Assembly (NCBI GenBank): GCA_017309015.1
Contig: JAEDAG010000007.1
Coordinates: 28,483 to 92,482, forward strand
DNA length: 64,000 bases
Reading direction: 5' to 3'
From: Faecalicatena absiana
GTDB taxonomy: Bacteria > Bacillota > Bacilli > Lactobacillales > Lactobacillaceae
The notes beneath the pieces were generated by a model. It was not told the origin of the DNA, ran no database searches, and saw only the letters and a list, made by a program, of their open reading frames with translations. The position numbers and the translations under genes are program-made. Below, piece after piece: positions 42,740 to 53,412 of this stretch; the stretch's first letter is position 1; each line of letters begins with the position of its first letter.

Positions 42740-42907
42740 TGAAGCGATTAGGACCAGCGCCTACCTGCTAGTCCTGATCGGCGTCGGCACTTGCCAACCA
42801 TGGCAGTCGGCGTAAAGCCCCAGGTTTTAGGACTTAGGGTCTGGCTCTTATACTTAATTTATCTTTTCACAACTTTGGCCCGGGTGCGTTGCCCGGGCCT
42901 TTTTTTT
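42740..42907 (+). ncRNA. Candidate structured small RNA with its own terminator
   Basis: A -10-like TAGAAT (42728-42733) is followed by about 168 bases that end in a very strong terminator. GGACCAG (42751-42757) pairs with CTGGCTC (42841-42847), CTAGTCCT (42768-42775) with AGGACTTAG (42829-42837), and TGCCA with TGGCA (42792-42805). The result is a rod with asymmetric internal loops. No open frame fits. The shape loosely recalls 6S-type RNAs, but I cannot identify a family. It sits in the 819-base gap between the zinc-ribbon gene and the beta-glucosidase gene. Confidence 0.5.
42877..42907 (+). terminator. Strong rho-independent terminator
   Basis: GGCCCGGG / CCCGGGCC stem with TTTTTTTT. No gene precedes it on this strand except the candidate RNA. 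Confidence 0.9.
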
Positions 42908-42930
42908 GGTAGAGCGTGTCAAAACATCGG

Positions 42931-43084
42931 CAGTTGGGTACTTTTAGGGGATCATTTTGGTCAAAACTGCGGTAGTTGGGTACTTTTAGGGGATCATTTT
43001 GGTCAAAACTGCGGTAGTTGGGTACTTTTGGGGGATAAAATTTTTGAAAAGGGGCGTATTTAGGTATTTTTAGGGGTAAAAAAT
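42931..43084 (+). repeat. 42-bp tandem array, left arm (about 3.7 units)
   Basis: Units start at 42931, 42973, 43015 and 43057 and share the core AGTTGGGTACTTTTAGGGG with ATCATTTT. The first two are nearly identical and the last is shortened and degenerate. It faces an inverted array beginning at 43085. Confidence 0.85.
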
Positions 43085-43252
43085 CCCCGTAAAGTCCCCA
43101 ACTAAAGTCAAAATTGCGAAATTCATCCCTATAAAGTCCCCAACTAAAGCCGAAATCGCGAAATTCATCCCCGTAAAGTCCCCAACTAAAGCCGGAATCG
43201 CGAAATTCATCCCCGTAAAGTCCCCAACTAAAGCCAAAAACTTCGTGATCCA
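43085..43252 (-). repeat. 42-bp tandem array, right arm (4 units, inverted)
   Basis: Units start at 43085, 43127, 43169 and 43211, each with CCCCGTAAAGTCCCCAACT (or one base different). Read on the complement this is AGTTGGGGACTTTACGGGG, so it is the inverted partner of the left arm. The two arms meet at a hairpin apex near 43083. Confidence 0.85.
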
Positions 43253-45014: not shown

Positions 45015-45059
45015 AGTTGGGTACTTTTCCAAAGCCTTTTTCCCGAAAGATCCCCAACT
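45015..45059. repeat. Solitary inverted pair of the 42-bp repeat family
   Basis: AGTTGGGTACTTTTCC pairs with GAAAGATCCCCAACT in one hairpin. This is the same core as the array at 42.93-43.25 kb but with one unit on each side. Confidence 0.65.
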
Positions 45060-48645: not shown

Positions 48646-50055
48646 TTAATCAGCGTCTTTAGTCAGTTCGTAGATGGCTTCGGCGTAGATCGCGATTGAG
48701 TCGATCAGGTCCTTGACCATCATGTATTCGTTGGCCGCGTGCATGACCATCGGGCCGTTTTCCGGCTGGGCGCCGAAGGCAACCCCGCGCTTGAAGAGGC
48801 GGCCGTAGGTACCGCCGCCGATAACGACTTCGTGGCCCTTGTTCCCGGTCTGCTTTTCGTAGACCTTGAGCAGGGTTTGAACCAGTGGATCGTCGCCTGG
48901 CACGTAGTGCGGCTCTTCAAAGCCATTGTAGCTGACGTCCAGGATGCCGCCGAACTTGGCCATGACCTGCTTGACCATGGTGTCAGGGTCAGTGCCTTGC
49001 GGGTAGCGGACGTTGTTCTTCATCAAGGCCTCGCCGTCGTGTTCGTAGGCAAAAATGGTTGAGGAGCTGGCGATTTGGCCCATCAAGTCGTCCTTGTGGT
49101 AGATGCCCAGCTTTTTCCCGTAGAAGTCTTCGTGAGCCACGTCGGCTAAGAAGTGAAGGAAGTTCTTGTCTCTGCCGGCAAAAGCATAGCGGTCCAAGAA
49201 CAAGGCCAGGAAGGTGGCGGAGTTCTTGCCGACTTGCGGGGCAGAGGCGTGGGCGCCTTGGCCAACCAGCACGATGTCGGCTGCGTCTCCCTTGACGTCA
49301 AAGCTGCCTTCCAGGCCATTGTCGGCCAAGAAGAGCTGGTAGGCAGCGGCCATGTCGTCCAGCTTTGGCCCTGTGATCGTGGCCCGGGTTACCTGTGGAG
49401 TCACGTTGGTGGCGATGCCGGCCTTGAAGGACTGCAGGACGCAGTCGCCCTTGGCGGCGTCGTTTTTGAAGGTGAATTCCAGGGTAAAGATCCCTTGTTC
49501 GCCGTTGATGATCGGGTATTCAGCGTCAGGGGAGAAGACGATGTCTGGCGTTGGCTCATGCTTCAAGTAGTAGTCGATGCCAACCCAGTTGGTTTCTTCA
49601 TTGGTTCCCAAGACGAAGTCGATCTTCTTTTTGGGCTTAAAGCCGGCTTCCTTTAAAAGGAGCATCCCGTAGTAGGCTGCCAGGCTTGGTCCCTTGTCGT
49701 CGGCACTGCCGCGTCCGTAGATCCGGCCTTCAGCGTCGATTTCCATCTTGAAGGGGTCATGGGTCCAGCCATCGCCGGCAGGAACGACGTCCATGTGGCC
49801 GATGATGCCCAGGCGCTGGTCGCCTTCACCGAAGTTGACCCGGCCAGCGTAGTTGGCGAAGTTTTCCGTGTCAAAGCCGTCGCGCTGGGCGAAGCTGAGG
49901 AACTTGGTCATAGCCTTGACCGGGCCAGGGCCAACGGGGTATTCCGCGCTGGCCTTGGCCAGGTCTTCGGATGAGTCGATGGCGATCAATTCCGCCAAGT
50001 CCTTGAGGATGGCGTCCTTTTTGGCGGCCGCGAGTTCTTTGTAGTTTAATTCCAT
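48646..50055 (-). CDS. pepV: Dipeptidase PepV (M20 family)
   Basis: PepV is a zinc-dependent cytoplasmic dipeptidase of 469 aa that completes peptide breakdown after oligopeptide uptake. Metal and catalytic landmarks are GHMDVVPAGDGW, GRGSADDKGP, GTNEETNW and SPDAEYP, with a lid-domain His in GQGAHAS. Overall it resembles the well-studied L. delbrueckii enzyme very closely. The ATG at 50055 follows CAGGAGAAAATA. The adjacent upstream DNA holds the 42-bp arrays. Confidence 0.94.
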   Translation of the reverse strand: MELNYKELAAAKKDAILKDLAELIAIDSSEDLAKASAEYPVGPGPVKAMTKFLSFAQRDGFDTENFANYAGRVNFGEGDQRLGIIGHMDVVPAGDGWTHDPFKMEIDAEGRIYGRGSADDKGPSLAAYYGMLLLKEAGFKPKKKIDFVLGTNEETNWVGIDYYLKHEPTPDIVFSPDAEYPIINGEQGIFTLEFTFKNDAAKGDCVLQSFKAGIATNVTPQVTRATITGPKLDDMAAAYQLFLADNGLEGSFDVKGDAADIVLVGQGAHASAPQVGKNSATFLALFLDRYAFAGRDKNFLHFLADVAHEDFYGKKLGIYHKDDLMGQIASSSTIFAYEHDGEALMKNNVRYPQGTDPDTMVKQVMAKFGGILDVSYNGFEEPHYVPGDDPLVQTLLKVYEKQTGNKGHEVVIGGGTYGRLFKRGVAFGAQPENGPMVMHAANEYMMVKDLIDSIAIYAEAIYELTKDAD

Positions 50056-50169: not shown

Positions 50170-50498
50170 GGCTGCGGTAAAAGCGGGGCTGATTTTTGTT
50201 GATTTTGCCATGGCTGCGGTAAAAACGGGGCTGATTTTGTTTGATTTGGCTTTGGCTGCGGTAAAAACGGGGCTGATTTTGTTTGATTTGGCTTTGGCTG
50301 CGGTAAAAACGGGGCTGATTTTTGTTGATTCGGCTTTGGCTGCGGTAAAAGCGGGGCTGATTTTGTTTGATTTGGCTTTGGCTGCGGTAAAAACGGGGCT
50401 GATTTTGTTTGATTCGGCTTTGGCTGCGGTAAAAACGGGGCTGATTTTGTTTGATTTGGCTTTGGCTGCGGTAAAAGCGGGGCTGATTTATTGTTTAG
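50170..50498 (+). repeat. 42-bp tandem array, left arm (8 units)
   Basis: Units begin at 50170, 50212, 50254, 50296, 50338, 50380, 50422 and 50464. The shared core is GGCTGCGGTAAAAACGGGG then CTGATTTT. Units differ by a few substitutions (A or G before CGGGG; TTTTTGTT or TTTTGTTT). The array faces an inverted array that begins at 50499. It occupies most of the gap upstream of pepV. Confidence 0.9.
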
Positions 50499-50573
50499 AT
50501 CCCCGTTTATTACTGAACCAAACGTTTTTTTCGAAAAATGATCCCCGTTTATTACTGAGCCAAACGTTTTTTT
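50499..50573 (-). repeat. 42-bp tandem array, right arm, first part (cut by ISL3 element)
   Basis: Units begin at 50499 and 50541, with core GATCCCCGTTTATTACTGA. The second unit is interrupted at 50573 by the insertion sequence and resumes at 52086-52101. Confidence 0.88.
50566..50573 (+). repeat. Target-site duplication of the ISL3 element, left copy
   Basis: GTTTTTTT directly before the left terminal repeat; the same 8 bases occur at 52086-52093 after the right end. Eight bases is the size expected for ISL3-family elements. Confidence 0.85.
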
Positions 50574-52085
50574 GGTTCTGTATAAAAACGTGTGTAAATT
50601 AACTAAGGGACTTAAGGCTTCTTCCGAGATAATTCCATTAATCTCAAGAAGAAATATTCATCATCTGGATATCCATAACCCTTGCGTCTCTCAGTTTTGA
50701 TCTTGTTGTTAATACCCTCTAATTTGCCCGTAGATATCCTGTACTTAGCGAATGAATAGATTCCTGACAGGTGGCGCTGTAAGAGTCTGGCAAACCACTT
50801 AAAGTGGCTATTCTCAGTCTCGATACAAATATCTATGATGTACTCGAGTTTGACGCACATCTCCACTTCATCATTTGAGCTATATGCCTGATCCAATAGG
50901 TCTTTGACGATGTCTATTGTGAAGAACAATCTGTTTTCCTCTAGTAGATCGTCATACCAGCTCTCATTATCACCATGAGCTCTAATCTCTGGCTTATTGA
51001 AGATTTCGCCAGGCACAGATACTAGCTTTCCTTGTCGAGCATCTCCATCCTTTTGAACTAGGGTAGATCGTTTAGACATCAAGATATAACGAGAGTTCTT
51101 AAGCAATTTGGCTGCTTCTGGGGTACCTTCTTCAGCTAGTCTCTTTTGTTCATCCTTACGGATTTCAGAAACAACTTTATCGTTGAAATTCTTGATGATG
51201 TGGAAGCGGTCATAGACAATGTCTAGCTTGGGATAGCGCTCTTTAAAGGCTTCTTCAAAGTCTGAGTTCATGTCACAAGCAACTGCTTCAACCTTAGACA
51301 TCCACTCATCGCCAACATGATCCATAAACTCATAAACAACGGCCTTCTTCTTGCCATGGGCTAAGTAAAGAATGTGCCCAGTTTCCCAGTCAATGATTAC
51401 AGTGGCGTATTTATAACCATCGTGCAGTTTGAATTCATCTATGGCTAAGTATCTTGCCTGTCTTTCAGGTTTAATGAGCGTCTTTCCATCGATTGTAAAT
51501 TTAGATAATAGGAGTTCCTTGTGAATCGACTTAACTGTCATTTTATCAAGGCCAGTAATTTCAGCGACTTGTTTTAGAGTGCATCCATCGCTTAGTAGGC
51601 GCTCAGTGCATTCTTTTAAAGCCTTGGTAATTCGATAACCATTGGCTTTAAAGGGAATAGACTGACTTCTGGTATTAAATTTACAATCAGTATTGAGACA
51701 ACGAAAACGTGCGTAAGATACCTTAATCTTAGTATGTTCTAGTCCCAGAGGAATATGCCTAAGGGTAGTGACAAGGGTTCCATTCTTGACTAGCTTCGTT
51801 GAGCAGTCGGGGCAGAAACCAGGTTCACACTCGGCTAATTTTCCAACAAAGATTTTTTCACCTTCATTTTGAATTGGCATACCCAATTGAATAAAGTCGG
51901 TTAAGCCAGATTCGAAAAATAAGATGCCTTTGTTAGATTCAAAGCCTTGAGTAGAAACTGTCTGTTCTGTATAATTCATAGTAAGAAGGGCCCCTCGTGT
52001 TTTTGTGGTTATTAACATTGTAAGGGACAACCCTTCTTTTTTGTTGTCTAATTTTTACTATTTACACACGAATTTATACTGAACC
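50574..52085 (-). mobile_element. ISL3-family insertion sequence, complete
   Basis: A 1512-base element bounded by inverted repeats: the left end reads GGTTCTGTATAAAAACGTGT, and the right end on the complement reads GGTTCAGTATAAATTCGTGT, continuing GTAAAT on both. It is flanked by an 8-base duplication GTTTTTTT and carries one transposase gene on the minus strand. It is inserted inside the 42-bp array. Confidence 0.93.
50612..51979 (-). CDS. ISL3-family transposase
   Basis: The 455-aa protein has an N-terminal zinc finger (CPDCSTKLVKNG and a CLNTDCKF pair), a helix-turn-helix near LKQVAEITGLDKMTVKSIHK and a C-terminal DDE_Tnp_ISL3 catalytic domain (AIDEFKLHDGYKYATVIIDW, then VACDMNSDFEEAF, with a distal TGKLEGINNKIK Glu). 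The start is uncertain: ATG at 51979 is taken, while an in-frame ATG at 52018 would add 13 residues. It appears intact, and the flanking duplication suggests recent insertion. Confidence 0.92.
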   Translation of the reverse strand: MNYTEQTVSTQGFESNKGILFFESGLTDFIQLGMPIQNEGEKIFVGKLAECEPGFCPDCSTKLVKNGTLVTTLRHIPLGLEHTKIKVSYARFRCLNTDCKFNTRSQSIPFKANGYRITKALKECTERLLSDGCTLKQVAEITGLDKMTVKSIHKELLLSKFTIDGKTLIKPERQARYLAIDEFKLHDGYKYATVIIDWETGHILYLAHGKKKAVVYEFMDHVGDEWMSKVEAVACDMNSDFEEAFKERYPKLDIVYDRFHIIKNFNDKVVSEIRKDEQKRLAEEGTPEAAKLLKNSRYILMSKRSTLVQKDGDARQGKLVSVPGEIFNKPEIRAHGDNESWYDDLLEENRLFFTIDIVKDLLDQAYSSNDEVEMCVKLEYIIDICIETENSHFKWFARLLQRHLSGIYSFAKYRISTGKLEGINNKIKTERRKGYGYPDDEYFFLRLMELSRKKP

Positions 52086-52353
52086 GTTTTTTTCGAAAAA
52101 TGATCCCCGTTTATTACTGAGCCAAGCGATTTTTTCGAAAAATGATCCCCGTTTATTACTGAGCCAAGCGATTTTTTCGAAAAATGATCCCCGTTTATTA
52201 CTGAGCCAAGCGATTTTTTCGAAAAATGATCCCCGTTTATTACTGAGCCAAGCGATTTTTTCGAAAAACGATCCCCGTTTATTACTGAACCACGAGATTT
52301 TTTCAAAAAATGATCCCCGTTTATTACTGAACCAAACGATTTTTGCATCAGTT
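52086..52353 (-). repeat. 42-bp tandem array, right arm, second part
   Basis: After the insertion the broken unit resumes (52086-52101). Six more units begin at 52102, 52144, 52186, 52228, 52270 and 52312. Together with 50499 and 50541 they make eight units, equal to the left arm. Some units are identical over 42 bases; the last two show more changes. Confidence 0.9.
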
Positions 52354-52475
52354 AGGTACCTTTAGGGGATCATTTTGATAAAAATGTCAGTAGTTAGGTA
52401 CTTTTAGGGGCTGATTTGCGATGTAGTTAGTCATTTTTGAAAAAATGTTCCCCGCAAAGTCCCCAACTGCCGCCT
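52349..52475. repeat. Additional repeat-family copies with hairpin
   Basis: Two copies of AGTTAGGTACNTTTAGGGG (near 52351 and 52393) are followed by CCCCGCAAAGTCCCCAACT near 52452, which can fold back on them. These match the type seen at 42.93-43.25 kb rather than the adjoining array. Confidence 0.65.
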
Positions 52476-52511: not shown

Positions 52512-53267
52512 TTAATGGCGGTATTTGGTTGCGGCAATATCGATGACTCTTTCGGTAAAGACGACGGGGATTGACTGCGGGTCGACCGGCAGCCCTTGAG
52601 CCAGGTTCTTGCCTGGCAGGATGATGACCTTCTTGAAGTACTTTTTCAAAGGCGTGTCTGGGTTCATCGTGATCAAGTAGCTGTGCTTGAAATGTGAGAT
52701 GGACTTAGGCAGGGGGGAGGAGCCAAAAAGCTTGGAGATCCCGGAAACCGAGTAGAAGACGGCAGTTGAGTCTTCATTGCTCAAAGGGAAGAGGTGCTCG
52801 CCAGCAGCCAGGGCATCCCCGAAGTAGGTCGCCTTCCCCAGGTCCCGCATCCCCATGCAGAGCAGGCGGGCCGGCAATTCAGAATAGTAGATCCCGAAGA
52901 TGAAATTGTTGGAGCTGTTGATCAGGACGTCAGCCAGCTCATCGGCATCGGTCTCGTTGGTGGTCCAGACTTGATTGATGGCATCGTGGTAGTCCTGCAG
53001 GTATTCGCTGGTCGAGACCATGGCGCTCTGGCTTTCCTGCTTCTTGATGTAGGTCAGCAGCTGAAACTTGAATTCCTTGAAGCCAGAATAGCCCATCTTC
53101 TGGCAAAAGCGCTGTACGGAGGCCAGGCTGGTCCCGGCTTCTTCCGCCAGGTGATTGATGGTCAGGGATTCAACGTTGGTCAAGTCCTTGGTCATGCGGT
53201 TCATGATCTTACGGTCGGATTTGGAAAGCTCCGATGACTCGACCGTGAAAAAATTAGTGATGTCCAT
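52512..53267 (-). CDS. RpiR/MurR-family regulator
   Basis: The 251-aa protein has an N-terminal RpiR helix-turn-helix (INHLAEEAGTSLASVQRFCQ, about residues 37-56) and a C-terminal SIS-like sugar-phosphate domain (NFIFGIYYSELPARLL). Such regulators often sense amino sugars or other sugar phosphates. The ATG at 53267 is about 10 bases past GTGGGGA. It lies beside a cluster with a beta-lactamase-fold hydrolase and dipeptide epimerase that may act on wall peptides. A regulatory link is only suggested by proximity. Confidence 0.82.
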   Translation of the reverse strand: MDITNFFTVESSELSKSDRKIMNRMTKDLTNVESLTINHLAEEAGTSLASVQRFCQKMGYSGFKEFKFQLLTYIKKQESQSAMVSTSEYLQDYHDAINQVWTTNETDADELADVLINSSNNFIFGIYYSELPARLLCMGMRDLGKATYFGDALAAGEHLFPLSNEDSTAVFYSVSGISKLFGSSPLPKSISHFKHSYLITMNPDTPLKKYFKKVIILPGKNLAQGLPVDPQSIPVVFTERVIDIAATKYRH

Positions 53268-53412
53268 GTTTTGCAATCCCCACTTTTAAATAAAATTAAC
53301 AGTTACTATCAATTTTATCATAATTTCTGAAAAATTATCAAAATATTGTGGCTGGAAAGGCCCGCTGCGCGGCAATTACGAGATTGACTTTGCATGGAGA
53401 AAGCAATTTGGT

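Follow-up and report, generated by a model that had tools for sequence, protein, structure and literature searches.

The window, by which we mean the whole stretch of 64,000 nucleotides analysed here, lies in contig C19 of the source genome G000 (2.23 Mb in 21 contigs) and contains an intergenic locus at which two rows of 42-bp units face each other. We judge the chances to be evenly balanced that this locus belongs to a set of iteron-like arrays spread over the genome, with putative binding by a Rep3 protein. The arrays of 42-base units probably serve as docking sites for a protein that we call NERD-Rep3, a relative of plasmid replication initiators that is chromosomal and fused to a nuclease-like domain (NERD, nuclease-related domain), and are unlikely to form one long hairpin; the word chromosomal refers to array-bearing contigs of up to 733 kb and to housekeeping neighbors, in a draft assembly rather than a finished genome. 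The occurrence of NERD-Rep3 genes beside arrays is the best lead that we have, and it suggests putative binding of the protein to the units.

The locus, array A, lies between the gene for an RpiR-type regulator with an HTH_6 domain (52512–53276, minus strand) and pepV (48646–50055, minus strand), which is its downstream neighbor, so that the array is upstream of the pepV start; a terminator-like hairpin is present between the regulator gene and the array. The left arm (50170–50489, plus strand) is made of eight class a units with the core GGCTGCGGTAAAAACGGGG, whose starts run in 42-bp steps from 50170 and 50212 to 50464. After the central part of the apex (50490–50500; the offset from the a core to the b core is 37), the right arm begins on the minus strand with two class b units (50501–50573) whose cores, GGCTCAGTAATAAACGGGG or close to it, start at 50501 and 50543, and it continues beyond an insertion sequence with six more (52094–52349; cores at 52105–52333, with starts from 52105 to 52315 in 42-bp steps). 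The first-pass annotation had described eight units facing eight across an apex near 50495, equal in number once an ISL3 insertion is removed and alike at about half of their positions. All of this was confirmed: the apex lies between 50482 and 50501, our script counts eight cores on each side with the insertion set aside, and the two consensus units, read in the same sense, are equal at 23 of 42 positions (counted by hand). The interrupting element (50574–52085, minus strand) is indeed of the ISL3 family, with inverted ends, a DDE_Tnp_ISL3 transposase (PF01610, E = 9e-46; ORF 50612–52030) and an 8-bp target duplication, GTTTTTTT, at 50566–50573 and 52086–52093; an identical copy is found elsewhere, at L054:7505–9016. 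The two arms have Tandem Repeats Finder (TRF) scores of 568 and 465, which exclude chance as the origin of array A. The product of the neighboring pepV gene has its best PDB match in 1lfw, which we take to be the Lactobacillus delbrueckii PepV enzyme, and it is 85% identical to PepV of three members of the genus (G061, G010 and G031).

The window holds more units of this kind. Directly to the right of array A there is a small companion (52350–52468), in which two class d units (52350–52433, plus strand) that follow the b arm are faced by one class c unit (52450–52468, minus strand), so the order in this array is a-b-d-c. A second array of the same design, array B (42932–43229), has four class d units (42932–43076, plus strand) facing four class c units (43085–43229, minus strand). 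There are also solitary d/c elements, such as the hairpin-like one at 45015–45059; elements of this sort with a TTTTCGGGA ending occur at window positions 45015 and 53417 and at loci L235–L249, and several of them lie just 3' of similar terminator-like hairpins (CTCATCTAA..TTAGATGAG). Among 75 genomes of the genus, the solitary-type c/d pattern was found in G000 and in none of the others.

By pattern and model searches of G000 and of the stretches fetched from it, we found arrays on eight contigs (C1, C2, C12, C15, C16, C18, C19 and C20). Clusters of at least four units, as called by script in the fetched set, number 15 in G000, 20 in the congener G011, three in G061 and one in G010, where one of the G000 clusters is array A together with a solitary unit close to it, and contig ends truncate several of those in G011. 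The units fall into six classes that form three facing pairs, and the facing arms differ in unit type: the class a core GGCTGCGGTAAAAACGGGG faces the class b core GGTTCAGTAAAAAGCGGGG, the class c core AGTTGGGGACTTTGCGGGG faces the class d core AGTTGGGTACTTTCCGGGG, and the class e core GGTTGAGTCAACTTGGGGG faces the class f core GGTTGACATACTTTGGGGG, although in a few arms the script gave single units the label of a neighboring class (L192 and L200 came out as f/f, for instance, and L123 as b/b). Three G000 arrays are a-b-c-d composites, and one more reads a-b-c up to an assembly gap.

Each 42-bp unit consists of a conserved 19-bp core and a diverging spacer. Between loci, the consensus sequences of arms are 0.89–0.96 identical in their cores but 0.61–0.82 in their spacers; in this comparison class d contributed three arms, and some b and c arms, which border two junctions, were entered twice. 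The e/f core has the conserved ends GGTTGA and GGGGG. Arms contain up to 23 units, and the step within arms is 42 bp in 542 of 562 cases, 43 bp in 13, 41 bp in six and 32 bp in one; spacings other than 41–43 bp are under-counted, because the unit caller favors neighbors at those distances. The apices are also regular: the offset is 25 bp at every one of the 23 e/f apices and 36 or 37 at nine of the ten a/b apices (68 at the other), and the b-to-c offset is 45 at all four junctions of that type, whereas c/d apices are variable. We rejected a protein-coding repeat of 14 residues, since the period-3 power of column variability (0.038) is close to the neighboring values, and a CRISPR array, since whole 42-bp units including their spacers match one another at 92% and 95% within the two arms. 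Several e arms are adjoined by a different, two-armed satellite with 32-bp units (core CTTACTCAAGTA, with inverted partners), whose step corresponds to about three helical turns; in G011 and G061 its place is on the outer side of the e arm, and it was seen at L253:4740–4930, L201:4790–4910, L188:4440–4750, L190 and L251. At three related e/f loci, a COG3610-DE RNA (RF03066) lies just before the f arm (L252:4272–4388, L193:12151–12267 and L186:4796–4912).

The idea that 42 bases, as four turns, would set the cores on one face of the helix is supported in a modified form: the A/T steps peak at the 10.5-bp harmonic, which is the largest in 44 of 60 arms. This peak fits sites that are aligned for a protein. 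In a permutation test of A/T runs, the observed mean power was 0.165 compared to a null mean of 0.092, exceeding all 5,000 draws (maximum 0.130), but only nine of the 60 arms, which are related to one another, were above their own 95% limit.

A candidate for such a protein is encoded beside two of the arrays. The ORF adjoining the a/b array L122 of G000 (paralog 1) combines a NERD domain (PF08378) with Rep3_N (PF01051) and Rep3_C (PF21205), and an ortholog with 97% identity adjoins the orthologous a/b array of G061. A second paralog, with NERD and Rep3_N domains, adjoins an e/f array of G011, and a copy of it (97% identity) is found next to the syntenic e/f array in G000, from which it is separated by an inserted insertion sequence. 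The two paralogs are 45.5% identical. NERD and Rep3_N were found in all four proteins and Rep3_C in paralog 1 only; in the NERD part, all four share D124, E137 and K139, residues that are presumably catalytic in such nucleases. In the stretches that were fetched, the gene occurs at these two loci, each in two genomes; tblastn searches of the fetched loci found no homolog at the other array neighborhoods, array A included, and we found no partner protein for class c/d. Upstream of paralog 2 lies the e/f array with its inverted apex. The array at paralog 1 is at the 3' end of the gene, and no core-like site was found upstream of its start. None of the 626 plasmid records matching NERD-Rep3 covers 80% of it, the 20 matches listed among them all start at residue 248 or later, and searches of phages and viral contigs found no NERD-Rep3. 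The two proteins that were compared with NCBIfam have no match there, a profile of all four has no sequence match in the PDB up to E = 1, and a single-sequence structure model is poor (pLDDT 39.7).

The arrays share several properties with the iteron origins of theta plasmids that use Rep3 (RepB/RepE/pi-type) initiators: a core of about 19 bp is repeated in tandem and in one direction, with a spacing of whole helical turns; the inverted apex is a possible counterpart of the inverted half-repeat; and at two loci a gene for an initiator of the two-winged-helix kind lies nearby. The repeat length does not agree. Rep3 iterons are repeats of about 17–22 bp, and the units here have a step of 42 bp around their 19-bp core. 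A review (PMC4980987) gives 17 bp as the lower end of iteron lengths and states that Rep proteins bind iterons cooperatively and that a displacement by half a turn abolishes the cooperativity. Among three related Rep3 plasmids that we examined, L262 has 22-bp direct iterons, with an inverted half-iteron immediately preceding rep; the direct iterons of L263 measure 21–22 bp, and no iteron array was found in L261. Unlike Rep3 origins, the arrays described here are on large contigs, are many and dispersed, use 42-bp instead of 21–22-bp units in arms of up to 23, and have two unit types facing each other, and the protein is fused to a NERD domain.

We also considered that the arrays might be a neutral intergenic repeat family, a selfish satellite in the manner of BOX or BIME with no dedicated binding protein, whose arms vary by slippage and whose NERD-Rep3 neighbors are coincidental. 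Their genomic location is compatible with this. Of 31 elements, 23 have ORFs on both sides, and by our own reading 16 of these lie between convergent, six between co-directional and one between divergent ORFs, compared to 22 convergent gaps among 132 background gaps of at least 50 bp at the same loci (Fisher P = 7e-7; ORFs were defined by length only, at 80 aa for the elements and 100 aa for the background, some flanking ORFs are short, and one at L053 runs through an assembly gap). Both arrays in the window are among the six between co-directional ORFs. To the left of array B, at 42740–42910, there is a possible non-coding transcript on the plus strand with a strong terminator, which would make the gap of array B convergent too; around array B, the stretch 42740–42910 included, Rfam gave matches below gathering scores only, and at gathering scores it found only five tRNAs in the whole window. 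A plain selfish repeat could equally be enriched in convergent gaps, as has been published for BOX (PMC3049150).

The distribution is patchy as well, which again suits a neutral repeat. Among the 75 genus genomes, the tandem c/d pattern was found in one, the b tandem pattern in two, a generic five-fold GGGG pattern at 42 bp in three, and the e/f apex in four (at four places in G000, 18 in G011, and one each in G010 and G061). Unit counts vary freely, and the gap of G010 that corresponds to the one between the RpiR-type gene and pepV lacks an array. At family level, the generic 42-bp GGGG pattern was found in five of 397 genomes, of which G254, G363 and G379 have units that look unrelated, and an a/b-type pattern was found in G000 and, once, in G379. 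G254 and G379, from another genus of the family, have 42-bp tandem units of GGGGCC..GAGCCCC and GGGGCCAGACT types, apparently unrelated to those described here. A b tandem query of GTDB contigs found one record, a Lactobacillus metagenome-assembled genome (MAG), in a search that may leave out the query's own records, and no array was matched in phages, plasmids or viral contigs with the queries used; a short c/d pattern matches three IMG/VR stretches. What speaks against neutrality is that cores have been kept while spacers diverged, that all 23 e/f apices have exactly the same offset, and that the association between gene and array recurs, with two paralogs at two unit classes. We regard a neutral repeat as a credible but doubtful explanation.

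Known repeat families differ from these arrays in design. REP/BIME elements and REPINs are short extragenic imperfect palindromes in inverted pairs; the arrays are similar in the inverted pairing of short extragenic units, but they have long same-strand tandem arms with a 42-bp step. Streptococcus BOX elements (boxA-boxB(n)-boxC; PMC3049150) are likewise modular, intergenic, variable in tandem number and over-represented between convergent genes. In BOX, one tandem module lies between two ends. The arrays described here consist of two tandem arms, each with its own unit type, set at nearly constant apex offsets, and a protein is a candidate partner for them. We rejected a modular repeat of the BOX type, with two unique end modules around one tandem module, as both arms are tandem and meet at an apex. 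Non-coding satellite families of bacteria are also intergenic tandem repeats dispersed in one genome, without the face-to-face arms (PMC6749651); Lactobacillus does not appear in the main text of that paper. Among the literature matches listed, in a search whose coverage mostly leaves out subscription papers, there is no description of these arrays or of the NERD-Rep3 fusion.

The ends of ISL3 elements begin GGTTC[AT]GTATAAA, similar to b units, and one copy lies inside a b arm (window 50574–52085). The arrays might accordingly be amplified transposon ends, with a and b derived from the left and right ends of ISL3-type elements, opposed as they would be in a miniature element, and with e/f resembling the junction of a circle with abutted ends. 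The right end of ISL3, GGTTCAGTATAAATTCG, agrees with the b core in 12 of 14 positions counted from the first base, a comparison made post hoc, and this score is reached at only three other places among 351,702 14-mers outside arrays in other G000 loci; a relative of ISL3 also begins beside another b arm (L123:5290). Yet the two other types of insertion sequence that we examined have nothing in common with any class, none was seen with e/f or c/d ends, and insertion sequence ends lack the 42-bp repetition, so we consider this origin improbable.

The first-pass annotation had proposed that the locus could form a very long hairpin in RNA or a cruciform in DNA. The capacity to fold is there: without the insertion sequence, array A folds in silico with 238 left–right pairs and a minimum free energy (MFE) of −257.1, compared to a mean of −237.6 when the left-arm spacers are permuted and the cores kept, although one of the 15 permutations goes down to −262.4. 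A function for the fold did not stand up to comparison among loci. Matched arm counts are not a rule, as 24 of 31 complete facing pairs are unequal (38 pairs were listed, from which three b/c junctions and four pairs cut by contig ends were removed); the seven equal pairs slightly exceed chance (P = 0.043; the permutations gave 3.66 on average). Within classes, the lengths of the two arms show no significant correlation (e/f, rho = 0.31, P = 0.21, n = 18; a/b, rho = 0.38, P = 0.32, n = 9; c/d, rho = 0.63, P = 0.37, n = 4), and the pooled correlation (rho = 0.49, P = 0.005) mixes classes of different size. Nor are the arms of related loci kept equal: L122 and L131, 94% identical over 3.2 kb on one side, have a7/b7 and at least a11/b5 (a minimum, since L131 is cut by a contig end), and four loci with a common flank (94–99%; L186, L252, L184 and L193) have f9/e7, f11/e8, f11/e10 and f17/e8. 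Arms pair no better with their own partners than with foreign ones, for a/b (n = 10; P = 0.35, 0.59 and 0.26) or e/f (n = 16; P = 0.74, 0.75 and 0.58). In the stem at the e/f apex, 96.5% of cells pair in 21 of the 24 apex sequences, with no pair changed on both sides; five of its eleven pairs are invariant, partly because the search pattern demands them. Because arms are unequal, have no advantage with their own partners and show no compensatory change at the apex, a functional long hairpin is not supported for these arrays, and we consider a hairpin or cruciform function highly improbable. The differing arm types make the inverted repeat imperfect, so cruciform instability should be lower.

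If a Rep3 protein does bind these arrays, each core would be the site of one monomer, with two winged-helix domains contacting the two ends of the core. A step of 42 bp, equal to two iteron lengths and four turns, would line up the monomers of an arm along a single side of the DNA, and the inverted apex would be a two-fold site, similar to the operator-type inverted half-site of iteron plasmids, that sets the meeting point of the two rows. Cutting or nicking at the arrays may be the part of the NERD domain. More speculatively, the arrays may derive from plasmid-like replication sites that became integrated. Recombination would lengthen and shorten each arm separately, the arrays would have spread into neutral intervals where genes converge, and they would persist because the Rep3 protein acts on them.

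In full, and somewhat short of even confidence, we propose a chromosomal iteron system in which nuclease-fused Rep3 proteins each have their own family of two-armed 42-bp arrays, located mostly in convergent gaps and organized into putative protein lattices, and which is either selfish, by descent from integrated plasmids, or domesticated for plasmid sensing or chromosome organization. The lattice may be a selfish remnant of integrated replicons, or it may serve in plasmid sensing or incompatibility, or in the organization of the chromosome. If the proposal is true, plasmid-type initiators moved onto a bacterial chromosome and, with a nuclease-like domain, built paralog-specific binding arrays across the genome. 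They would offer a natural experiment on the evolution of iteron specificity, and on how dispersed iterons affect plasmid incompatibility, replication and chromosome structure, and the puzzling matched inverted repeat would be accounted for without a giant RNA hairpin.
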